Assembly (NCBI GenBank): GCA_017520105.1
Contig: JAFWRL010000288.1
Location: 1-7,034, forward strand
Origin: Fibrobacter sp.
GTDB taxonomy: Bacteria; Fibrobacterota; Fibrobacteria; Fibrobacterales; Fibrobacteraceae
Reading direction: 5' to 3'
Length of the DNA stretch: 7,034 nt
Shown: piece after piece, positions 2 to 7,034 of the stretch
How positions within the stretch are numbered: position 1 is the first letter of the stretch
How the letters are laid out: each line of letters begins with the position of its first letter
Program-made: the position numbers and the translations under genes
The notes under the pieces: generated by a model
Seen by the model: the letters and a program-made list of their open reading frames with translations, nothing else
The model's database searches: none
Told to the model about the DNA's origin: nothing

Positions 2-628
2 CTTTTCACAAGCAACGATGAACTCGCACAAAAAATCCGCCTCATTGCGAACCACGGCAGTCAGACGCGCTACGTTCACGAGATTTGCGGCATGAACAGC
101 AGACTCGACGCCATCCAAGCAGCGGTTCTCCGCGTGAAACTTCGCCATTTCAAAGACGAGCTGAAGATGCGCCAAGAAAACGCCCGCAAGTACGACGAGT
201 TTTTTGCAGAATACAACGAGAGAATCGCCGCAGGTGCGGGCATTGCGGGCACAAGCGCCGGTGCAAAAATCACACCGCAGAAAATTGCCGACGGCAACAC
301 CAGCACCTACGCGCAGTACACCGTGCTGGCAGATGACCGCGACGCATTCATCGCAAAACTGGACGCCGCAGGAATTCCCTACTGCATCCACTACCCGATG
401 CCGCTGCATGAGCAGCCTTGCTTTGCAAAATACCAAACGGACTATATCGCAGGAGCATTATATGGTCCTCCCGGTATCATCAATACACTCCCGCCCAACA
501 TCGTCGATGAATTATTAGAAAACACAAATATACATGCCGATCGAGCTGCGGAACATGTCGTGAGCCTCCCCTTCTGCGCATTTACGAACGTGGAAGAGAT
601 AATTGCAAGACTTAAGAAAGTAATGTAG
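2..628 (+). CDS. DegT/DnrJ/EryC1/StrS-family PLP-dependent sugar aminotransferase, C-terminal part (5' end outside window)
   Basis: The reading frame enters open at base 2 and ends at TAG 626-628, giving about 208 residues of a protein normally 360-400 long. The visible part starts at LFTSNDELAQKIRLIANHG, continues with YVHEICGMNSRLDAIQAA and then VLRVKL, which is the conserved block after the PLP lysine in this family, and later has GIPYCIHYPMPLHEQPCF, the usual substrate-side loop, then HVVSLPF. The catalytic lysine would lie upstream of the window. Members transfer an amino group from glutamate to a nucleotide-activated keto-sugar for O-antigen, capsule or glycan synthesis in the cytoplasm; the WbpE/WlbC type is the closest I recall, but the substrate cannot be told. 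One oddity: between QPCF and the ADRAAEHVVSLPF block there are about 37 residues where relatives have about 14. Family call is firm, substrate unknown. Confidence 0.9.
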   Translation, partial: LFTSNDELAQKIRLIANHGSQTRYVHEICGMNSRLDAIQAAVLRVKLRHFKDELKMRQENARKYDEFFAEYNERIAAGAGIAGTSAGAKITPQKIADGNTSTYAQYTVLADDRDAFIAKLDAAGIPYCIHYPMPLHEQPCFAKYQTDYIAGALYGPPGIINTLPPNIVDELLENTNIHADRAAEHVVSLPFCAFTNVEEIIARLKKVM

Positions 629-738: not shown

Positions 739-811
739 AGCAAAGCGACCTCACAGCCCAAAGCGAAGCGACCCCAAAGGGGCTTTGCCCCGACCCCATA
801 GCTCACAGCCC
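739..811. repeat. Compound repeat with GGGGC-TTT-GCCCC hairpin
   Basis: Two overlapping direct repeats frame a perfect palindrome. AGCRAAGCGACC is at 739-750 and 762-773; CTCACAGCCC is at 750-759 and 802-811. Between them GGGGC-TTT-GCCCC (779-791) forms a 5-bp stem with a 3-nt loop. The same 13-mer recurs at 4578-4590. The second CTCACAGCCC reaches the first base (811) of the convergent HAD gene's stop codon. No function is evident; it may act as an intergenic hairpin between two convergent genes. Confidence 0.6.
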
Positions 812-1656
812 TACAACACAAATTTCTCGATAACTTCGGCGATTCCCGAGTGGTTGTTGTCGTGCACCGTTACGTAATCTGCAACGGCCTTCGCCGCCGG
901 TGACGCATTCGCCATCGCCACACCGACACCAGCCGCTTCAATCATCGGGCAATCGTTTTCTTCGTCGCCCACGGCAATCGTATTTTCAATCGGCTCGTGA
1001 TAGAAGTCCGCCATGTAGCGCACCGCAGCGCCTTTATTCGAAAGCATGTGCGAGAACTCCAGCATTTCGGGCTTGCTGAACACATCAAAGAGTTTATCCG
1101 CAGTCACGGTCCGCATGTCGGCACGGAAATCGACAAGACTTGAATGTTCAAACGGCGTAATGACGTTGACCTTGATTGGCGGTTTCACCACGACATTTAT
1201 CGGGCCGTTCACATTGCGCTGTTCACCGTAGTACGTACGAATGTCGTCAACAACAACATAATCCATCTGCATCAAGCGACAATACGTCTTGAGCTGTTCC
1301 GTCTCGTATTCCGAAACGACTAAATCGCCAGCGTAAGTATGCGCATGCATTCCGCGCTTGTGCGCCTCGTCCATAATGAACTTCACCTGATCCACAGCAA
1401 TGCGGCGCGTCAAAATCGGCTGTTCCGTTCCGCAGTCGTAAATGAGCCCGCCATTAAAGCTCACCAAAAAATATCCCTGTTTCAAGAAGCCATACTTTTC
1501 CGCAATCCGCTTCACGCTTGTGAGCGGACGCCCCGTCGTCATCACGAACTTGTGGCCCGCGTCTATCATCGCGTGTATAGCAGCCATATCCGCGTCGCTG
1601 ATATTCTTCGCGTCGTCGAGAAGCGTACCATCCAAATCAGTAAAAAGAAGTTTCAT
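811..1656 (-). CDS. Cof-type HAD-superfamily hydrolase (sugar or nucleotide phosphatase), 281 aa
   Basis: All four HAD motifs are visible. Motif I is FTDLDGTLL with nucleophile D7 and acid/base D9; motif II is TTGRP (T40-P44); motif III is the lysine in SNKGAA (K208); motif IV is GDEENDCPMI (230-239) with D231 and D235 for Mg2+. The region between motifs II and III (about 80-200) fits the C2B cap of the Cof/YwpJ/YidA subfamily, and 281 residues is the normal length. Such enzymes are cytosolic and hydrolyse small phosphate esters (sugar phosphates, sometimes FMN or PLP) with broad specificity, so the substrate cannot be named. The ATG at 1656 places motif I at residues 5-13, as usual. There is no Shine-Dalgarno; TAAATT lies 7 nt before ATG, suggesting a leaderless message. 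The gene converges with the aminotransferase and is divergent from nrnA. Confidence 0.93.
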   Translation of the reverse strand: MKLLFTDLDGTLLDDAKNISDADMAAIHAMIDAGHKFVMTTGRPLTSVKRIAEKYGFLKQGYFLVSFNGGLIYDCGTEQPILTRRIAVDQVKFIMDEAHKRGMHAHTYAGDLVVSEYETEQLKTYCRLMQMDYVVVDDIRTYYGEQRNVNGPINVVVKPPIKVNVITPFEHSSLVDFRADMRTVTADKLFDVFSKPEMLEFSHMLSNKGAAVRYMADFYHEPIENTIAVGDEENDCPMIEAAGVGVAMANASPAAKAVADYVTVHDNNHSGIAEVIEKFVL

Positions 1657-1663
1657 GGAAGTA

Positions 1664-1671
1664 AATTTAGT
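1664..1671 (-). promoter_or_regulatory. Putative -10 element of the HAD gene (ACTAAATT, 7 nt before ATG)
   Basis: On the minus strand the octamer ACTAAATT ends exactly 7 nt before the ATG at 1656. It matches the WCTANATT-N7-ATG pattern at three other starts in the window. A transcription start about 7 nt after a -10 hexamer would fall on the A of ATG, so a leaderless transcript is inferred. The upstream ACTAG sequence belongs to the neighbouring tandem repeat; I see no convincing -35. Confidence 0.5.
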
Positions 1672-1712
1672 TACTAGTTAATGGTTACTAGTTAATAGTT
1701 ACTAGTTACTAG
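1670..1712. repeat. Three 14-bp tandem repeats built on GTTACTAG
   Basis: Three consecutive units are GTTACTAGTTAATG (1670-1683), GTTACTAGTTAATA (1684-1697) and GTTACTAGTTACTAG (1698-1712, one base longer). The array begins within the promoter octamer of the HAD gene, so change in copy number would alter the region just upstream of its -10. The same GTTACTAG core reappears after mraY at 6658-6665 and 6679-6686, and in inverted form (CTAGTAAC) at 1733 and 1770. Confidence 0.8.
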
Positions 1713-1732
1713 AGGATGCAATAAGAACATTT

Positions 1733-1779
1733 CTAGTAACTCTAAACTCATAACTGTGCCATAGGCACCCTAGTAACTC
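1733..1779. repeat. CTAGTAACTC pair flanking a GTGCC-ATA-GGCAC hairpin
   Basis: CTAGTAACTC is present at 1733-1742 and 1770-1779, and between them lies the perfect palindrome GTGCC-ATA-GGCAC (1756-1768; 5-bp stem, 3-nt loop). CTAGTAAC is the reverse complement of the GTTACTAG unit in the array just upstream, so the two blocks are inverted relative to each other around 1713-1732. The block lies between the divergent HAD and nrnA genes, just upstream of the nrnA -10-like element. It is probably a dispersed repeat rather than a specific operator. Confidence 0.6.
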
Positions 1780-1798
1780 AGAACTTAGAACTCAACTT

Positions 1799-1806
1799 AC
1801 TATATT
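1799..1806 (+). promoter_or_regulatory. Putative -10 element of nrnA (ACTATATT, 7 nt before ATG)
   Basis: ACTATATT ends at 1806, exactly 7 nt before the ATG at 1814, and the spacer CGTTTTC has no Shine-Dalgarno. The 10-mer TTACTATATT with the same 7-nt spacing is repeated before the ATG at 7000. A leaderless or nearly leaderless transcript is inferred. No clear -35 hexamer is seen 16-18 bp upstream. Confidence 0.55.
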
Positions 1807-1813
1807 CGTTTTC

Positions 1814-2767
1814 ATGAAAATAGATGATTTATTGAACGAATCTAAAACCGTAGCCATTTTCGGGCATGTCCGCCCCGACGGCGATTGCGTAGGCTCCACC
1901 CTTGGACTTTACAACTACATTTGCGACAACTATCCGACAATCAAGGTTCAACTGTTTTTGGAACGCTTTCCCGAAAGCTACAAGATTCTCCCCAATTCAA
2001 ACAAAGTTTGCGAAATTTACGAAGACAGTTCCGCACCTGTCGATTTAGCATTCCTCATAGATACGCCTTCGTTTGAACGCATCGGAGCCAACGGCGAAAA
2101 ATGCCTCAAGACAGCAACCAAAACTTGCAACATCGACCACCACATCAGCAACCCGCTGAATCTCTGCACAAAAAATTTTGTCGAAGTCAAGGCGAGTTCC
2201 GCAAGCGAAGTCCTGTTCTTTTTGCTTAACCCGAATAAAATAAGCAAAGACACCGCAGAATGTCTCTATCTTGGAATTGTTCACGACACAGGCGCATTCA
2301 AATTTAGCTGCACCGGGCAAAAGACGATGGTCGCCATTGGAGAATTGCTCGACAAGGGAATCGACTTTACACGCATCATCAACGAGACCTACTATACAAG
2401 GACATACATCCAGACGCTCGTCACCGGATTCGTGATGCTGAACAGCAAACTTGCACTTAACGGCAAGGTCGTTTATAGTTACCTCACCCCCGACGACATG
2501 ACCCGCTACTCCGTAACGCCGGTCGAATTGAGTAACGTCATCGACACTTTACGCGAAGTGAGCGGCACCGAAGTCGCCATATTCCTTTACCCCGTCAATG
2601 GGGAATACAAAATCAGCTTGCGTAGCAATTATGTTGTCGATGTCAACGCCATTGCCAAGAATTTTGGCGGAGGCGGCCACATTCGCGCCGCAGGCGGAAA
2701 CTCCAAGGAATCCCCCGAAGAGACAATCAAGAAGCTTTTGTTGCTCATACAACAACAATTATCGTAA
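1814..2767 (+). CDS. nrnA: DHH/DHHA1 phosphoesterase, NrnA-type oligoribonuclease/pAp phosphatase, 317 aa
   Basis: The protein shows the DHH-family order of motifs: GHVRPDGDCVGS (17-28) with metal-binding H18, D22 and D24; LIDTP with D83; the signature IDHH (107-110); and GIVHDTGAF with D158. It then has a C-terminal DHHA1 domain with SLRS (268-271) and the glycine-rich FGGGGHIRAAGG (284-295). Length and motif order match NrnA, which in other bacteria degrades 2- to 5-mer RNA and dephosphorylates 3'-phosphoadenosine 5'-phosphate in the cytosol, using Mn2+. RecJ is excluded because it is much larger. The ATG at 1814 gives the normal N-terminus and is set by the -10-like element 7 nt upstream. 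The gene is divergent from the HAD gene and followed 68 bp later by the lipoprotein, which has its own signals, so it is probably monocistronic. Confidence 0.92.
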   Translation: MKIDDLLNESKTVAIFGHVRPDGDCVGSTLGLYNYICDNYPTIKVQLFLERFPESYKILPNSNKVCEIYEDSSAPVDLAFLIDTPSFERIGANGEKCLKTATKTCNIDHHISNPLNLCTKNFVEVKASSASEVLFFLLNPNKISKDTAECLYLGIVHDTGAFKFSCTGQKTMVAIGELLDKGIDFTRIINETYYTRTYIQTLVTGFVMLNSKLALNGKVVYSYLTPDDMTRYSVTPVELSNVIDTLREVSGTEVAIFLYPVNGEYKISLRSNYVVDVNAIAKNFGGGGHIRAAGGNSKESPEETIKKLLLLIQQQLS

Positions 2768-2805
2768 CAACGACATTAAATAAAAGTCCACCTTTGTTTT
2801 TTGTA

Positions 2806-2825
2806 TATATTTTAAAAGAAGGAGG
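2806..2825 (+). promoter_or_regulatory. -10-like TATATT and strong Shine-Dalgarno of the lipoprotein gene
   Basis: AAGGAGG at 2819-2825 lies 10 nt before ATG 2836 and is the only strong Shine-Dalgarno at a gene start in the window. A TATATT (2806-2811) immediately upstream can serve as -10, which would give an 18-20 nt leader carrying the site. This decides the start in favour of ATG 2836 over the in-frame TTG at 2794, which overlaps these signals. Confidence 0.6.
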
Positions 2826-2835
2826 ATATTTCATA

Positions 2836-4233
2836 ATGATTCGTAAGATAATTCACGGCCTAGCAGTAGTCCCCTTTGGGGCGGTAGCCTTTTTAGCAAG
2901 TTGTTCCGACAACGCCAACGATCCAATTTCCGCGTTAAGCGAATATTCTAGCGATTCAGAAACGGTTCTGTCCAGTTCCGAAACGGACGATTCCTATTCC
3001 GAATCACTTTCCTCCAATTCCGAATATAAAGGTTCCTGCTCGTCAAAGGCTTCCTCGAGTTCAGCAAAGACGCCCTCGAGTTCGGCAAACGTTCAATCCA
3101 GTTCGGCAAAAGTATCATCCTCTTCAGCACAAGGATCTTCGGACTCTGCGACCTTAAGTTCCGCAAACCAGAGCTCCAATTCAAGCGCATCTAGCTCCAC
3201 CACCATCAATTCAAGCACGGCAAAAAATCCATCCAGTTCAACAGCAACTTCGTCAAACACAACGCTATCTAGTTCCGCAGGCGCTAAATCCGCAGGCAGC
3301 AACGGCAACTCTTCCATTTTCGAACCGATCGTGCGTTCGTCCAGCAGCTACAGCAAATTACGTAACGAACCCGAAGATGAACGCCACAAGATTTACCGTC
3401 TGCTCTACCCTGTCGAAAACGGAGCGCTCGACACGGGCTATTTCGACCAGGGCGACTGCGAAATCCAGAACAATGGATCCTTTGCATGCCGTCAAAAAAG
3501 CTGCGTTGAATATGTCGGAGGATACATCAGCCTCCATAGCGAAGGAATGTTCCCCGGAGACGGGAGCGAAAAACACGCCCAATATTTCCGCGGGAGCACC
3601 GACGAGACCAGACTCATCGACATCAATCTAGGCGACAGCGCCCTCACGTCGTACATTCCCTACGCCGACATCCCGGAATTCGACATAGACGACATCAAGA
3701 GCAAACTTTCGACACTCCCGGCAGCCACGTGCACCACATTGATACAGTTTGTCAGCAATTATAAAATGAGCGCCAGCGGGTTGCCCGAAGGTTTTGTCTT
3801 GCACCTAGACGCCAATTTCGCACTCAAGCCGTCAGAGCGCGTGACGGAGCCCTATTCCATGGTATTCCCGAAAGAAGAACTGGACACCGTCAAGGCGAAC
3901 ATTTCCACCAACGAAAACCGCATTGCACACGGCTACACGTTGTTTAACGAAATTCAATATGCCAAGGAAACCCTCTTCTCCAAGAGTTCCATTGAATACA
4001 ACACCTATGTCAGCGACCAGGGCTGTGGCATCGTAGCGCACACATACAATCCTATGCCCTCCGGAATGGCCGGTCTATGCCAAGGCTGGATCATCCCCGA
4101 AAGAGCACGGAATTTCTCGGTGCGCCTCATCAACACCTCGGACAAGACCCCGGCTTCGTTTACATGGAAATTGACCTACATGGACCAGTTTGGCCGTGGC
4201 AATACAATTGACATCACGACGCAGCTACGATAA
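2836..4233 (+). CDS. Serine-rich-linker lipoprotein with an unrecognised C-terminal domain, 465 aa
   Basis: Residues 1-23 form a lipoprotein signal peptide: positively charged MIRK, a hydrophobic stretch, and the lipobox L20-A21-S22-C23. Residues about 33-172 are a low-complexity linker dominated by Ser with Ala, Thr, Asn and Lys, including imperfect 7-8 residue repeats such as SSSSAKTP, SSSANVQ and SSSAKVS. From about 175 to 465 the sequence becomes a mixed, folded-looking domain with six cysteines (208, 218, 223, 299, 397, 415), which could form disulfides outside the cytoplasm. I do not recognise the domain; there is no glycoside hydrolase, carbohydrate-binding or FISUMP motif that I can name. 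Ser-rich linkers joined to a lipid anchor are typical of Fibrobacter surface proteins. Residue +2 after Cys is Ser, not Asp, which would allow outer-membrane sorting if the Lol rule applies. The gene converges with the exporter gene, 8 bp between stops. Confidence 0.85.
   Translation: MIRKIIHGLAVVPFGAVAFLASCSDNANDPISALSEYSSDSETVLSSSETDDSYSESLSSNSEYKGSCSSKASSSSAKTPSSSANVQSSSAKVSSSSAQGSSDSATLSSANQSSNSSASSSTTINSSTAKNPSSSTATSSNTTLSSSAGAKSAGSNGNSSIFEPIVRSSSSYSKLRNEPEDERHKIYRLLYPVENGALDTGYFDQGDCEIQNNGSFACRQKSCVEYVGGYISLHSEGMFPGDGSEKHAQYFRGSTDETRLIDINLGDSALTSYIPYADIPEFDIDDIKSKLSTLPAATCTTLIQFVSNYKMSASGLPEGFVLHLDANFALKPSERVTEPYSMVFPKEELDTVKANISTNENRIAHGYTLFNEIQYAKETLFSKSSIEYNTYVSDQGCGIVAHTYNPMPSGMAGLCQGWIIPERARNFSVRLINTSDKTPASFTWKLTYMDQFGRGNTIDITTQLR
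2932..3351 (+). repeat. Ser-rich linker-coding low-complexity region
   Basis: This coding stretch specifies residues about 33-172 of the lipoprotein. Imperfect units around TCGAGTTCAGCAAA and CCAGTTCGGCAAA recur every 21-24 bp between about 3054 and 3130, coding SSSAK-like heptads or octads. Both Ser codon families (TCN and AGY) are mixed, so the amino-acid pattern is better kept than the DNA repeat. It probably works as a flexible, extended spacer between the membrane anchor and the folded domain. Confidence 0.75.
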
Positions 4234-4241
4234 CGCGCTCG

Positions 4242-4934
4242 TCAAACGACAAACAAGGCAATTGCAAGCAAGATAAAAACGCAACCGCTAAACCAGTTGA
4301 GGTTGCGGTTTGCTTTTGGCGAATTTAAAAGATATTTCTTGACGGTCCCCGCCAAAAGTGCAATCGAGCCAAAGACAATCATTGTCGCCACGATAAATTC
4401 AGCGCCGAAAATCGCAGTCTGCAAACTCGGGGGAATCGGGCGGTCCAAACGCACCGCAGGCGGAATCAGTGAAAGAATAAACAAAATCACCTTCGGGTTC
4501 GTCATGTTCATGATGACTCCGCGCAGGTAAAGCTTGCGCGCCGAAGGCAGGCCATGTTCTGCGGGCCTGGATCCTTCGGGGCTTTGCCCCTCAGGATGAC
4601 GTGATGAAGACTCAGGATGGGATGAAGCCGCCGAGCCCGTTTTGTCGTCTAAATCCACAGTTCCAGCGCGGACTTGAAAGCTCTTGTACGCGAGGTACAG
4701 CAGGTACGCTGCGCCAAGGCACTGAATCACAAAAAACGCCATCGGGCTAGCGGCTATCAAAGCCGACACCCCAAGTACCAGAAGGCAAATCTGCAAAGCA
4801 ATCCCAGTACAAAGCCCGAGAATAATGCAAAATCCGAGACGCGCCCCGTACGTCGCACTCTGGGCAAGCACAAATAAATTATCCGGTCCAGGAGCAATCC
4901 CGATTACAAGAGCAGCAATGAAAAATTCAAGCAT
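4242..4934 (-). CDS. LysE/RhtB-family amino-acid or metabolite exporter, 230 aa, with repeat-derived loop
   Basis: The N-terminus has APGPDNLFVLAQS (14-26), the family's PGPD signature, and the second conserved motif RGVIMNMTNPK is at 138-148. About six hydrophobic segments are visible (1-25, 33-58, 62-83, 145-162, 172-197, 212-230), as expected for inner-membrane LysE/RhtB exporters of amino acids such as homoserine, threonine or lysine; the substrate is not predictable. The family length is about 200-210, and the excess lies in the cytoplasmic loop 88-135. Residues 105-124 there are encoded by a dispersed repeat (4563-4622), read in frame. ATG 4934 is 4 nt after the stop of the zinc-ribbon gene and has no Shine-Dalgarno, so co-transcription and possibly coupled translation are inferred. 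Its stop lies 8 bp from that of the convergent lipoprotein gene. Confidence 0.9.
   Translation of the reverse strand: MLEFFIAALVIGIAPGPDNLFVLAQSATYGARLGFCIILGLCTGIALQICLLVLGVSALIAASPMAFFVIQCLGAAYLLYLAYKSFQVRAGTVDLDDKTGSAASSHPESSSRHPEGQSPEGSRPAEHGLPSARKLYLRGVIMNMTNPKVILFILSLIPPAVRLDRPIPPSLQTAIFGAEFIVATMIVFGSIALLAGTVKKYLLNSPKANRNLNWFSGCVFILLAIALFVV
4277..4320 (+). terminator. Possible terminator of the lipoprotein gene inside the convergent exporter gene
   Basis: CGCAACC (4280-4286) pairs with GGTTGCG (4301-4307), and AAA (4277-4279) can pair with TTT (4309-4311) across a one-base bulge; a T-rich GTTTGCTTTT follows. It begins 44 nt after the lipoprotein stop. No hairpin is present in the 8-bp gap between the convergent stops, so this is the nearest candidate. 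The 14-nt loop and broken T-run make it weak. Confidence 0.3.
4569..4622. repeat. Dispersed palindromic repeat inside the exporter coding sequence
   Basis: ATCCT (4571-4575) pairs with AGGAT (4593-4597), enclosing GGGGC-TTT-GCCCC (4578-4590), to give a hairpin with a TC/TC internal loop. The inner 13-mer is identical to 779-791 in the first intergenic region. A second CTCAGGAT follows at 4611-4618 (first copy of the octamer 4590-4597). On the coding strand it reads CATCCTGAG twice and GAAGGATCC, a style of repeat (TCATCCTGAG...GAAGGATC) that I recall as dispersed in many genomes. Translation gives the Ser/Pro/Glu-rich segment 105-124 of the exporter. Confidence 0.75.
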
Positions 4935-4938
4935 GTTT

Positions 4939-5319
4939 TTACAATTTGCTCAAGAAGGCATCGACATCGAGGTCCGCAAGGTCCTTCTGCAACGCCTCTA
5001 GTTCATCGTCCGTAATCGCCGAGTGTTCATGAGCGCGTTCGTCGGCACGAGCGTTCGAAACATCCACCAGTTTCTTAAGCGAATTCGCCACCTCGCCCAC
5101 GGTACCGTCCTGACGCATCACGACATCCAAGACCTTCGAAAGTCTTTGGCGCAACCTTGCAAATTCCTCGCGGTCCAGCTCCGAAACCTCCCCATGATAG
5201 CACATCAAGGGGGTCTGGCACCTAGCACACGGGAACACCATCATATTCGAGAAGTCACCGTCTATCTGGACCTTAAATTTCGTTCCGCAATGCGGGCATT
5301 CGATATCCATTTCACTCAT
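4939..5319 (-). CDS. Small zinc-ribbon protein with acidic helical tail, 126 aa
   Basis: The N-terminus carries ECPHCGTKF (7-15) and PCARC (30-34), so Cys 8, 11, 31 and 34 form a CxxC-x19-CxxC zinc ribbon. A further Cys40 follows in LMCYHGEV. The rest (46-126) is charged and looks helical, ending in DDELEALQKDLADLDVDAF, an acidic amphipathic stretch. I do not recognise a named family; zinc-ribbon proteins of this size may bind nucleic acid or protein partners, or be structural. The start at 5319 is preferred over the in-frame TTG at 5361 because TACATT lies exactly 7 nt before it and the zinc ribbon then starts at residue 7. The stop is 4 nt before the exporter's ATG, so the two form an operon. 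The gene is divergent from mraY. Confidence 0.8.
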   Translation of the reverse strand: MSEMDIECPHCGTKFKVQIDGDFSNMMVFPCARCQTPLMCYHGEVSELDREEFARLRQRLSKVLDVVMRQDGTVGEVANSLKKLVDVSNARADERAHEHSAITDDELEALQKDLADLDVDAFLSKL

Positions 5320-5326
5320 ATATCCA

Positions 5327-5334
5327 AATGTAGA
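5327..5334 (-). promoter_or_regulatory. Putative -10 element of the zinc-ribbon/exporter operon (TCTACATT, 7 nt before ATG)
   Basis: Read on the minus strand, TCTACATT is followed by TGGATAT and then ATG at 5319. The spacing and the CTANATT core match the starts at 1656, 1814 and 7000. A leaderless message is inferred; no Shine-Dalgarno is seen and no clear -35 is present. Confidence 0.5.
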
Positions 5335-5410
5335 ATTTTTTACAATTCCTAGCCAATACAACTACAATATTTTATTTTTACACCGTCCATCAAGCTTTGT
5401 GAACCCGTTA

Positions 5411-5416
5411 TATAAT
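5411..5416 (+). promoter_or_regulatory. Putative -10 box of mraY (TATAAT)
   Basis: A perfect TATAAT is at 5411-5416. A start 6-8 nt downstream would fall near 5423, giving a leader of about 69 nt before ATG 5492, unlike the leaderless pattern at other genes here. An ATG directly followed by TAA (5423-5428) would be at the extreme 5' end of this RNA. No good -35 hexamer is found at 16-18 bp spacing. Confidence 0.45.
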
Positions 5417-5443
5417 TTTTCTATGTAAAACTAAACAACACTT

Positions 5444-5466
5444 TTCGCCTAAAAAGGGCGAAGCCC
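5444..5466 (+). promoter_or_regulatory. Alternative hairpins in the mraY leader
   Basis: TTCGCC (5444-5449) can pair with GGCGAA (5457-5462), while GGGC (5456-5459) can instead pair with GCCC (5463-5466) around a GAA loop. The two foldings use the same bases and exclude each other. They lie 26 nt upstream of the mraY ATG. This might be a regulatory leader, or simply another member of the short hairpin repeats found in the gaps. Confidence 0.35.
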
Positions 5467-5491
5467 GAGCTCTTTTCCCCAAACCTAAAAT

Positions 5492-6640
5492 ATGCTCTGC
5501 CACTGGCTTTATCAAACAACTCACATCGACCTTTTCGACGGACGTCTGTTCCGCGCAGGCTCTGCCGCCATGCTCTCCATCATCTTGGTGCTCTTCTTTA
5601 TGCCAAAGTACATCCGCTTTTTGCAGAGATTGGACGCCACCAGCGATTTCGACAAGGACGGAAAGACAAAATCGCCCCCGATTATGGGAGGTCTCCTTCT
5701 CGTCGTCATCGTGGAAATCGTATCGCTGCTTGTGTGCCAGATGAACGGCTACACCATTTCGACACTCGTCATTTTAGCGCTGTTCAGTGCCGTCGGCGCC
5801 ACCGACGACATGGCCAAAATCCGCGCCAAGCGCCTCGTGAATCAGGGCAAGCTCAAAGCCGCCGACTACATGGACAAAGCAGACGGCATATCCAGCACAC
5901 TCAGACTCGTTCTCTACTTTTTATTCAGTTTTGTCGTTGCCGTTTTCTGCTACAAGTTCATTCCCGAACTCAAAGGCGACTTGACCATTCCGTTCTGCCC
6001 TATTGACGTGTTCCAGATTCACCTTCCCAACTGGATTTTCGTTGCATTCATGACGTTCGTCATCGCGGCATCCGCAAACGGAACGAACTTCACGGACGGT
6101 CTCGACAGCCTCGTTTCTGTACCGATTCTCACCAGCATGTTCTTCGTGGGTCTTGTGGCCTATGTGAGCGGTAACTTTATCTTCAGCCAGTACTTGAGCG
6201 TGCCGTATCTCCCCGGCTGCGATGAACTTGTCCCGTTGGCGACCTCCATTGCTGGCGCGTTGCTCGCTTATCTGTGGTTCAACAGCCCTCCGGCCGAAAT
6301 CTACATGGGCGACGCCGGTTCTGTCGGTTTCGGCGCTACCATCGGCATCATGTTCATCTTGGTACAGGCGGGACTATTCCTCCCCATCGTTTGCATCATC
6401 ATCATCGCCGAAGCATGCTCCGTGCTAATGCAAATCACCTGGTTCAAAATAACCAAAAGAGCGACTGGCACAGGCAAACGCATCTTCCTTTGTGCGCCAC
6501 TCCACCACCACTACCAAAAGAAGTGGGACGGACGCTTCCCGAGCAAGCCCCTCATGAACTCCAAAATCGTATGGCGCATGCACTTGGTGAGCATTTTTGC
6601 GCTCATTTTCAGCATGGTCGTGTTCTTCGGTATAAGGTAG
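5492..6640 (+). CDS. mraY: Phospho-N-acetylmuramoyl-pentapeptide-transferase (MraY), 382 aa
   Basis: MraY moves phospho-MurNAc-pentapeptide from UDP to undecaprenyl phosphate, making lipid I at the inner membrane. The signatures are in order: PPIMGGLL (62-69), ATDDMAKIRAKR (103-114) with the Asp pair D105/D106, NFTDGLDSL (199-207), FNSPPAEIYMGDAGSVGFG (263-281) with the catalytic-site D274, and GKRIFLCAPLHHHYQKKW (328-345) with the HHH motif at 338-340. About ten hydrophobic segments are visible. At 382 residues it is longer than the E. coli enzyme (360); the HHHYQKK form is like Bacteroidetes MraY, and extra residues follow the HHH motif (346-358). The start at 5492 matches the family N-terminus (MLxHxLY), but there is no Shine-Dalgarno. 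Usually mraY sits in the dcw cell-wall cluster; here it stands alone. WecA/TagO is unlikely given the HHH and PxMGG motifs. Confidence 0.95.
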   Translation: MLCHWLYQTTHIDLFDGRLFRAGSAAMLSIILVLFFMPKYIRFLQRLDATSDFDKDGKTKSPPIMGGLLLVVIVEIVSLLVCQMNGYTISTLVILALFSAVGATDDMAKIRAKRLVNQGKLKAADYMDKADGISSTLRLVLYFLFSFVVAVFCYKFIPELKGDLTIPFCPIDVFQIHLPNWIFVAFMTFVIAASANGTNFTDGLDSLVSVPILTSMFFVGLVAYVSGNFIFSQYLSVPYLPGCDELVPLATSIAGALLAYLWFNSPPAEIYMGDAGSVGFGATIGIMFILVQAGLFLPIVCIIIIAEACSVLMQITWFKITKRATGTGKRIFLCAPLHHHYQKKWDGRFPSKPLMNSKIVWRMHLVSIFALIFSMVVFFGIR

Positions 6641-6686
6641 AATGCGGCTTCGCCGCAGTTACTAGTTATCTGTAAATAGTTACTAG
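6629..6686. repeat. Post-mraY compound repeat: GGTATAAGGTAG, GCGGC-TTC-GCCGC, two GTTACTAG
   Basis: GGTATAAGGTAG (6629-6640) resembles the AGGTATGAGGTATG unit at 627 and 663 and contains the mraY stop codon. It is followed by the palindrome GCGGC-TTC-GCCGC (6644-6656) and by two GTTACTAG units (6658-6665, 6679-6686) like those at 1670-1712. The arrangement joins elements of the first and second gap repeats, which suggests they are parts of one modular repeat family. Confidence 0.6.
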
Positions 6687-6689
6687 AAA

Positions 6690-6707
6690 AGCCCCGGCAA
6701 CGGGGCT
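6690..6707. terminator. Hairpin terminator, probably bidirectional
   Basis: AGCCCCG (6690-6696) and CGGGGCT (6701-6707) form a perfect 7-bp stem with a GCAA tetraloop (GNRA type). On the plus strand CTTGCTTTACTT follows, a broken T-run, 50 nt after the mraY stop. On the minus strand the stem is followed by TTTTCTAG, better for a terminator, and would serve the gene whose remnant lies at 6761-6838. Bidirectional use is inferred. Confidence 0.7.
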
Positions 6708-6760
6708 CTTGCTTTACTTCGCGAAAAGTCCAAATTCAGATATACTAATTCCGAATTTAC

Positions 6761-6838
6761 TTAGTCCTTGACGCAGCGGACGCTGAGCGATTCATTTTTG
6801 TAATCAAGTTTCACGCTCGGATCGTTTAGTTTAGAAGA
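6761..6838 (-). pseudogene. C-terminal remnant of a Fibrobacter FISUMP-type (major paralogous) protein
   Basis: Reading leftward from 6838 to TAA at 6763-6761, the frame gives SSKLNDPSVKLDY followed by KNESLSVRCVKD and stop. The ending SVRCVKD is the kind of terminus I associate with TIGR02145 Fibrobacter succinogenes major paralogous proteins. The frame has no Met and meets a stop at 6881-6883; upstream of about 6840 the DNA turns AT-rich and the translation (ILRIFKRGR) loses protein character. Only about 26 codons survive, so the rest of the gene was probably deleted. The 3' hairpin at 6690-6707, with T-run on this strand, fits its old terminator. Assignment rests on a short match. Confidence 0.55.
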
Positions 6839-6984
6839 TCTTCCCCTTTTGAATATCCGTAAAATACAAAAATAATTTGTTTATCAGATAACAACAAAAC
6901 TAATCTTGCAGAAATCACTTTTATCATTTTCTTTTTTGTAGCCCCTAAAGAAAAAAACATCCTATTTTCACAACTTCAACTATT
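6839..6984. other. AT-rich stretch with no gene seen
   Basis: Together with the preceding repeats, terminator and remnant this fills the 359-bp gap after mraY. The stretch is clearly more AT-rich than the rest of the window and has runs such as TTTCTTTTTTG and AAAGAAAAAAAC. All frames are broken; I see no RNA gene or clear operator. It probably contains the upstream promoter region of the gene starting at 7000 and sequence left by loss of the FISUMP gene body. Confidence 0.5.
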
Positions 6985-6992
6985 ACTATATT
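6985..6992 (+). promoter_or_regulatory. Putative -10 element of the last gene (ACTATATT, 7 nt before ATG)
   Basis: ACTATATT ends exactly 7 nt before ATG 7000, identical in octamer and spacing to nrnA's element at 1799-1806. TTTTCA at 6965-6970 lies 16 bp upstream of the TATATT hexamer and could act as a weak -35. The spacer ACCTCTT has no Shine-Dalgarno, so a leaderless transcript is inferred. Confidence 0.5.
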
Positions 6993-6999
6993 ACCTCTT

Positions 7000-7034
7000 A
7001 TGAATATCATCGAAACTTTGAATGCAGCGGGTCA
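7000..7034 (+). CDS. Start of an unidentified protein-coding gene (3' end outside window)
   Basis: ATG 7000 opens a frame reading MNIIETLNAAG up to the window edge, 11 codons plus two bases. The base composition returns to that of the other genes exactly here, and the promoter-like ACTATATT with 7-nt spacing supports this start. The fragment is too short to assign a family. Confidence 0.55.
   Translation, partial: MNIIETLNAAG

Follow-up and report, generated by a model that had tools for sequence, protein, structure and literature searches.

Start-adjacent −10-like boxes point to leaderless transcription in Fibrobacter

We analysed a 7,034-nt stretch of DNA from Fibrobacter sp. (contig JAFWRL010000288.1; "the window" hereafter means this whole stretch) in which four gene starts share a short box, WCTANATT, that ends exactly 7 nt before the ATG (N7, the number giving the nucleotides between box and start codon). 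The same box recurs near start codons throughout related genomes and is also found ahead of tRNA genes. Judged from sequence, leaderless transcription at such box starts is very probable. Under this interpretation the module would be the −10 element of a housekeeping (sigma70-type) promoter, with a consensus of roughly TTTCTANATT, and RNA polymerase would start on the A of the ATG, 7 or 8 nt past the last T of the box. The resulting transcript would carry neither a 5' leader nor a Shine-Dalgarno (SD) sequence, and the ribosome would have to recognise the 5'-terminal AUG directly.

The box and its spacing

The four modules named in the initial annotation are all present and exact, ahead of the starts at 1656 (−), 1814 (+), 5319 (−) and 7000 (+), and the upstream stretches contain no SD core near any of them, as had been claimed. 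The two genes held up as contrasts also read as described, with AAGGAGG ahead of the gene starting at 2836 and TATAAT 75 nt ahead of mraY. On both strands of the window WCTANATT occurs five times, four of which are the modules, and the looser CTANATT-N7-ATG adds a single match at 3631 (−), antisense within the 2836 gene. After dinucleotide shuffling of the six upstream stretches, four starts sharing an 8-mer were reached by 7/3000 sets under a rule that allows for post-hoc choice of the motif (any 8-mer, 6/8 letters shared, one offset), and the exact pattern at N7 arose 0.005 times per shuffled set. As for the motif itself, the CTANATT core stood, and the W turned out to be no separate element, only part of a T-rich stretch ahead of CTANATT.

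Genome-wide counts in relatives of the window's genome draw on other sequence and give far stronger evidence than the window-only statistic. CTANATT-Nk-ATG was counted over both strands of whole genomes, with N13 and the reversed pattern as controls (Table 1). At this scale the start-adjacent TANNNT-type box has its maxima at N6 and N7 in G001, G002, G003 and G005, not in G004. The N8 and N9 counts are intermediate between the peak and N5, and N5 shows no excess in those four genomes. The genome-wide excess near ATG anticipated in the initial annotation was thus found in relatives, with a peak at N6–N7 and little or nothing at other spacings. The N7 module is real, but its supposedly fixed distance of 7 nt gave way to one of 6 or 7 nt, and in some cases 8.

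Table 1. Matches to CTANATT-Nk-ATG in six relatives, by spacing
Genome	N5	N6	N7	N8	N9	N13
G001 (genome of L009)	16	60	85	32	28	16
G002 (genome of L001)	23	51	89	38	30	26
G003 (F. intestinalis, L056)	17	47	47	24	30	19
G004 (genome of L073)	2	0	8	9	2	4
G005 (Fibrimonas termitidis, L069)	26	201	171	83	95	64
G006 (genome of L050)	25	66	45	43	29	31

In 400 kb of G001 the top counts were again at N7 (12) and N6 (7), and 12/12 N7 matches open a frame of at least 100 codons (ATG background 0.227). Behind the box at N6/N7 of G001, ATG is raised (19 vs 4.7) and neither GTG (3 vs 3.5) nor TTG (5 vs 6.2) is. In sampled stretches of G005, GTG too is raised behind CTANATT at N6/N7 (11 vs 3.8 for the remaining spacings), a hint that some GTG starts in Fibrimonas may be leaderless.

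The spread of the signal was tallied for 50 of the 80 loci from an mraY search, one genome per named locus. At least 20 N7 matches together with an N7 count at least twice that of N13 were found in 38 of the 50 genomes, including 10/10 examined loci of the Fibrimonadales cluster (L062–L065, L068–L072, L075). The 12 genomes falling short (L047, L050–L052, L058, L060, L061, L073, L074, L077, L078 and the Myxococcus L080) all have a MraY at most 82% identical to that of the window, a level also found among passing genomes (L046, L049, L053–L056, L059, L066, L076 and Fibrimonadales). By eye and untallied, a 150-genome sample of the phylum splits in a similar way. Sampled stretches of G004 have SD 5-mers at their starts and no box signal.

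Genes that carry the box

Individual genes were assessed in 20 stretches of G001 (L083–L102). A box start was defined as a score of at least 6 at N6–N8 before the ATG under a position weight matrix (PWM) built from 78 sites in the related loci L001–L059, independently of the sampled stretches. The box precedes 24/167 starts with an upstream gap of at least 60 nt and 0/38 inner starts with a gap below 20 nt (p 0.0095); among divergent starts the fraction is 16/82. The excess over background amounts to 20/167 (12%) of the starts with a gap of at least 60 nt; N5 and N9 yielded no matches. An SD core is found in 0/27 box starts against 78/212 other starts, so that the sample holds both kinds of start and bears out the proposed coexistence of two initiation modes. 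Of 39 strong boxes 34 are intergenic, though called coding regions make up 77% of the sequence. Roughly one in ten of the Fibrobacter genes that have space for a promoter would be predicted to use the leaderless mode, beside SD-led leadered genes. A few box starts of this sample seem by eye to adjoin the hairpin and T-run of the upstream gene, and such T-runs merge into the T-rich stretch ahead of the box. A comparable sample of G005 has the box at 18/157 starts with a gap of at least 60 nt and at 14/66 divergent starts, with SD in 1/35 box starts against 93/238 others; 149/273 called starts there have neither an SD core nor a start-adjacent box.

Orthologs of the genes in the window give a consistent picture. 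The 5319 gene has a box start in 45/45 orthologs and the 1656 gene in 24/27, in both cases within diverged surrounding sequence; the box-anchored consensus for the 5319 gene is AaaTTTCTAcATT. The inner gene starting at 4934 has the box in 0/39 orthologs. Other genes vary between species. Among 25 orthologs of the 1814 gene, nine have box starts, nine are SD-led with a box farther upstream (for example L024–L026 and L030) and seven have neither. For the 2836 gene, 13 of 17 matches were set aside for an unaligned N-terminus, and three of the four placed orthologs have a box upstream of an SD start. Similarly, mraY, which is leadered in the window, has a scored box start in 10/78 placed loci (2/80 set aside), with a plain CTANATT in five of the ten (L053, L055, L056, L059 and L066).

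The 7000 gene is a natural experiment, in which the box is present only once the gene is detached from mraY. It has a box in 0/27 loci lying less than 40 nt behind mraY, in 0/2 at 40–59 nt and in 11/23 at distances of at least 60 nt (p 3.6e-5), a comparison that covers 52 of 63 matches (same strand, at most 3 kb behind mraY), leaves 5 of 16 box starts outside it and draws on interrelated loci rather than independent events. Four of the 63 matches were set aside for an unaligned N-terminus.

Probable promoter character and competing readings

The tRNA genes of G001, found by ARAGORN at 30 loci out of 52 RF00005 matches and in the 20 sampled stretches, offer untranslated genes for comparison. 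After exclusion of 5 lying behind another tRNA, 30 of the 35 distinct tRNAs remained, and 20/30 have the box 5–50 nt upstream; the antisense control gave 1/30 and the downstream control 5 of at most 30, a few tRNAs lacking a full downstream stretch. In 14/20 boxed tRNAs, 5–6 letters of TTGACA are found 15–19 bp upstream of the box, as against 72/1195 random anchors. The occurrence of the same box ahead of untranslated genes, mostly with a TTGACA-like −35, suggests that it acts as a promoter −10 of the sigma70 type and not as a ribosome site. At the leaderless boxes a −35 was sought as TTGACA, TTGAC, TTGGC, TTGG, TTG and GGC, and none was conserved. The box promoters of protein genes would be of a kind with no conserved −35, beside tRNA promoters of the same genome that mostly have one.

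A promoter placed this way could also produce a very short leader, with RNA beginning 1–5 nt ahead of the ATG. A gap of 6–7 nt between box and A is the usual distance to the first transcribed base. By the textbook rule a start at the A corresponds to N6; the N7 spacing, which G001 and G002 use more often, would place the +1 one base earlier. On the other side, among 69 distinct N7 sites and 29 distinct N6 sites (reduced from 126 and 43 matches) a pyrimidine occupies base −1 in 85% and 86%, respectively, which makes the A of the ATG the favoured purine at the usual distance, and N5 has no excess in the four genomes named above. In G001 the pyrimidine is found at 23/26 box starts against 44/78 SD starts (p 0.004). 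This argument weakens in G005, where base −1 does not differ between box starts (22/30) and SD starts (65/93; p 0.82). We regard a short leader as unlikely. Less likely still is a translational role, in which the box would be an AT-rich ribosome or S1 site inside a longer leader. The box does occupy the usual SD position and excludes SD, genomes of the Fibrobacteres–Chlorobi–Bacteroidetes (FCB) group, to which Fibrobacter belongs, are reported in the consulted part of one survey to carry AT-rich non-canonical ribosome-binding sites (PMC9581028), and Fibrimonas has the box at close-packed starts as well. Against this stand the tRNA genes with their −35 at promoter spacing, the absence of the box from Fibrobacter inner genes, the 4934 orthologs included, and the 7000 gene. 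Finally, four AT-rich upstream stretches might merely be alike by composition, given that the motif was picked after the fact and that some shuffled sets do reach four starts under the loose rule. The genome counts, with their spacing peak against both controls, refute this reading, and conservation at orthologs also speaks against it; its chances are next to nil.

Several points nevertheless weigh against the leaderless interpretation. The 5' ends at box starts are predicted positions. Genes and starts come from our own simple finder, which is blind to upstream sequence and uses no reference annotation. Ortholog scoring accepted an ATG within 4 codons on either side, and its PWM had drawn part of its training sites from the loci being scored, although the motif is plain without it. 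Only 2/27 protein-gene box starts have 5–6 letters of TTGACA, and with no −35 their promoter strength is unproven. Neither SD nor box is found at 135/239 starts of the G001 sample, so the majority of starts are explained by neither mode. In G005 the box occurs at 7/82 starts with a gap below 20 nt against 18/157 with a gap of at least 60 nt (p 0.66); the restriction of the box to SD-less genes in need of a promoter held in the Fibrobacter sample, and in the Fibrimonas sample its confinement to first genes was not seen. The N8 and N9 counts of G005 also exceed its N5 and N13, and in G006 the signal is weak: the reversed-pattern control reaches 40, and the N6 count exceeds it by a factor of only 1.6. 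Overall, the leaderless interpretation given in the initial annotation gains support from the N6–N7 excess and the avoidance of SD in relatives, and from these we infer the RNA start at the A of the ATG, the absence of a leader and the mode of ribosome loading.

On the ribosomal side, a pattern for the 3' end of 16S rRNA had matches in 0/6 genomes, and a 16S family search in 0/5, the same search being positive in just 9/14 control genomes. The anti-SD listed for class Fibrobacteria in the accessible part of PMC10783764 is CCUCCUUU.

Heptad arrays, window features and known systems

Degenerate tandem heptad repeats were seen at 1667–1717 of the window, in loci L001–L059 and in the sampled stretches of G001. 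Across L001–L059, which are related and not independent loci, there are 103 arrays at lag 7 against 1, 3, 2 and 15 at lags 5, 6, 8 and 9. The unit varies by place and species (TAACTAG, CCTATAA, TTCCTAC, CCGAATT, TCATAAT). In these loci an array lies within 60 nt upstream of 32/480 starts (gap at least 40 nt) and behind 16/441 stops; of the 32 starts none has SD, 11 are box starts and 21 have neither. The 19 arrays of the G001 sample are all intergenic, with none in 310 kb called coding, and occur at 6/190 starts (none with SD) against 9/190 stops, which indicates no preference for starts in that genome. The G004 sample has no intergenic and one coding array, and G005 has four and nine; one set of G005 self-match counts, raised about equally at every lag, was set aside as a presumed masked or low-complexity stretch. 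A case for comparison is provided by the start-adjacent TAACTGA repeats described for Beggiatoaceae in the part of PMC4679880 consulted. It is conceivable, though we consider it doubtful, that Fibrobacter has three kinds of start, namely an SD-led kind, a leaderless kind driven by a TTTCTANATT box lacking a −35, and a kind with neither, in which degenerate heptad arrays ahead of the start replace the ribosome site, and that the 1814, 7000 and mraY orthologs switch kind between species, some via the distance between box and ATG.

The remaining features of the window are collected in Table 2. TTGGC is seen by eye in many orthologs of the 5319 gene, uncounted and at variable spacing, and is absent from the box-anchored consensus; the product of this gene has a weak N-terminal zinc-ribbon match under the Pfam cut-off. 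The window's mraY is 98% identical to that of L001–L003, from metagenome-assembled genomes titled uncultured Fibrobacter sp. and F. succinogenes. A direct repeat of GGTATGAGGTATG type was noticed by eye at 630–680, 3' of the DegT gene.

Table 2. Genes and sequence elements of the window
Feature	Position	Strand	Basis
DegT-family aminotransferase, 3' end only	2–628		
HAD-like hydrolase (Pfam Hydrolase_3), predicted leaderless	811..1656	−	Pfam match
Putative −10 box ACTAAATT, N7 to ATG 1656 of HAD-family hydrolase	1664..1671	−	box start in 24/27 orthologs
Putative −10 box ACTATATT, N7 to ATG 1814 of DHH/DHHA1 protein	1799..1806	+	box start in 9/25 orthologs
DHH/DHHA1 protein, predicted leaderless	1814..2767	+	
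TATATT, likely −10 of leadered 2836 gene (contrast case)	2806..2811	+	read from sequence
AAGGAGG, SD of 2836 lipoprotein-like gene (contrast case)	2819..2825	+	read from sequence
Serine-rich lipoprotein-like protein, without Pfam match	start 2836	+	
LysE-like transporter, inner gene directly behind 5319 gene	4242–4934	−	
Small protein, predicted leaderless, first gene ahead of LysE-like gene	4939..5319	−	
Putative −10 box TCTACATT, N7 to ATG 5319	5327..5334	−	box start in 45/45 orthologs
TTGGCT, possible weak −35, 18 bp ahead of TACATT in 5319 box	5351..5356	−	read from sequence
TATAAT, 75 nt upstream of mraY ATG 5492 (leadered contrast case)	5411..5416	+	read from sequence
mraY (Pfam Glycos_transf_4)	5492–6640	+	
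Putative −10 box ACTATATT, N7 to ATG 7000	6985..6992	+	box start in 11/23 orthologs at least 60 nt behind mraY
7000 gene, start only (exits window); 445 aa in L001	start 7000	+	

Among known promoters, those of Bacteroidetes have a −7 TAnnTTTG with a −33 TTTG. They share the TA..TT core with the Fibrobacter box, and the FCB group is common to both. A −33/−7 box of this type was rejected, as 98 distinct sites (69 N7, 29 N6) show no TTTG consensus behind the box and the tRNA −35s are TTGACA-like. Genome-by-genome survey tables such as that of GeneMarkS-2 could hold an unlabelled Fibrobacter prediction. Titles and abstract openings found in searches for Fibrobacter papers on leaderless genes, transcription start sites, promoters, sigma factors and SD sequences describe no leaderless genes there, and neither do the consulted parts of PMC10783764, PMC3155529 and PMC5442110. 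If the prediction holds, a phylum of anaerobic cellulose degraders would be added to the bacteria in which leaderless genes coexist with SD-led ones. This group, for which the literature examined has no promoter consensus, would gain one to work with, as well as a rule by which start sites in Fibrobacter genomes can easily be corrected, and builders of Fibrobacter expression tools would need the box rule. With the same gene leaderless-type or leadered by species, the 1814, 7000 and mraY ortholog sets would make the evolution of the switch testable.

According to the portions of the surveys available, 21.6% of bacterial species are predicted users of leaderless transcription (PMC9581028), and TA-led (leaderless) genes are found in 207/953 bacterial genomes (Zheng et al. 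2011, PMC3160421). The latter describes a TANNNT lying some 12 bp ahead of the start and genomes that hold SD-led genes together with leaderless ones, both of which resemble what we see, and it argues that the leaderless mode is possible only for operon-proximal genes, which has a parallel in the Fibrobacter sample but not in that of Fibrimonas. Its main text has 0 occurrences of Fibrobacter and its table counts 8/20 unnamed "Other Bacteria" as positive, so that F. succinogenes may be among the positives, among the negatives or not in the table. A close likeness is to Deinococcus-Thermus, where, in the part of PMC12340547 consulted, a −10 motif TANNNT about 6–7 bp before the open reading frame is read as a promoter, the transcripts are taken as leaderless, and SD-type genes occur alongside. 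There the evidence includes transcriptome data and, per the section headings, expression tests, whereas the Fibrobacter case is known from sequence alone. In D. radiodurans nearly one third of genes are of this type, mostly with TACACT, compared with roughly one first gene in ten in the single Fibrobacter genome sampled, and the Fibrobacter box, in another phylum, is TANATT preceded by a T-rich TTTC. The data support as a prediction that Fibrobacterota would be an added phylum for a mechanism already known from Actinobacteria and Deinococcus-Thermus, and ordinary in kind.

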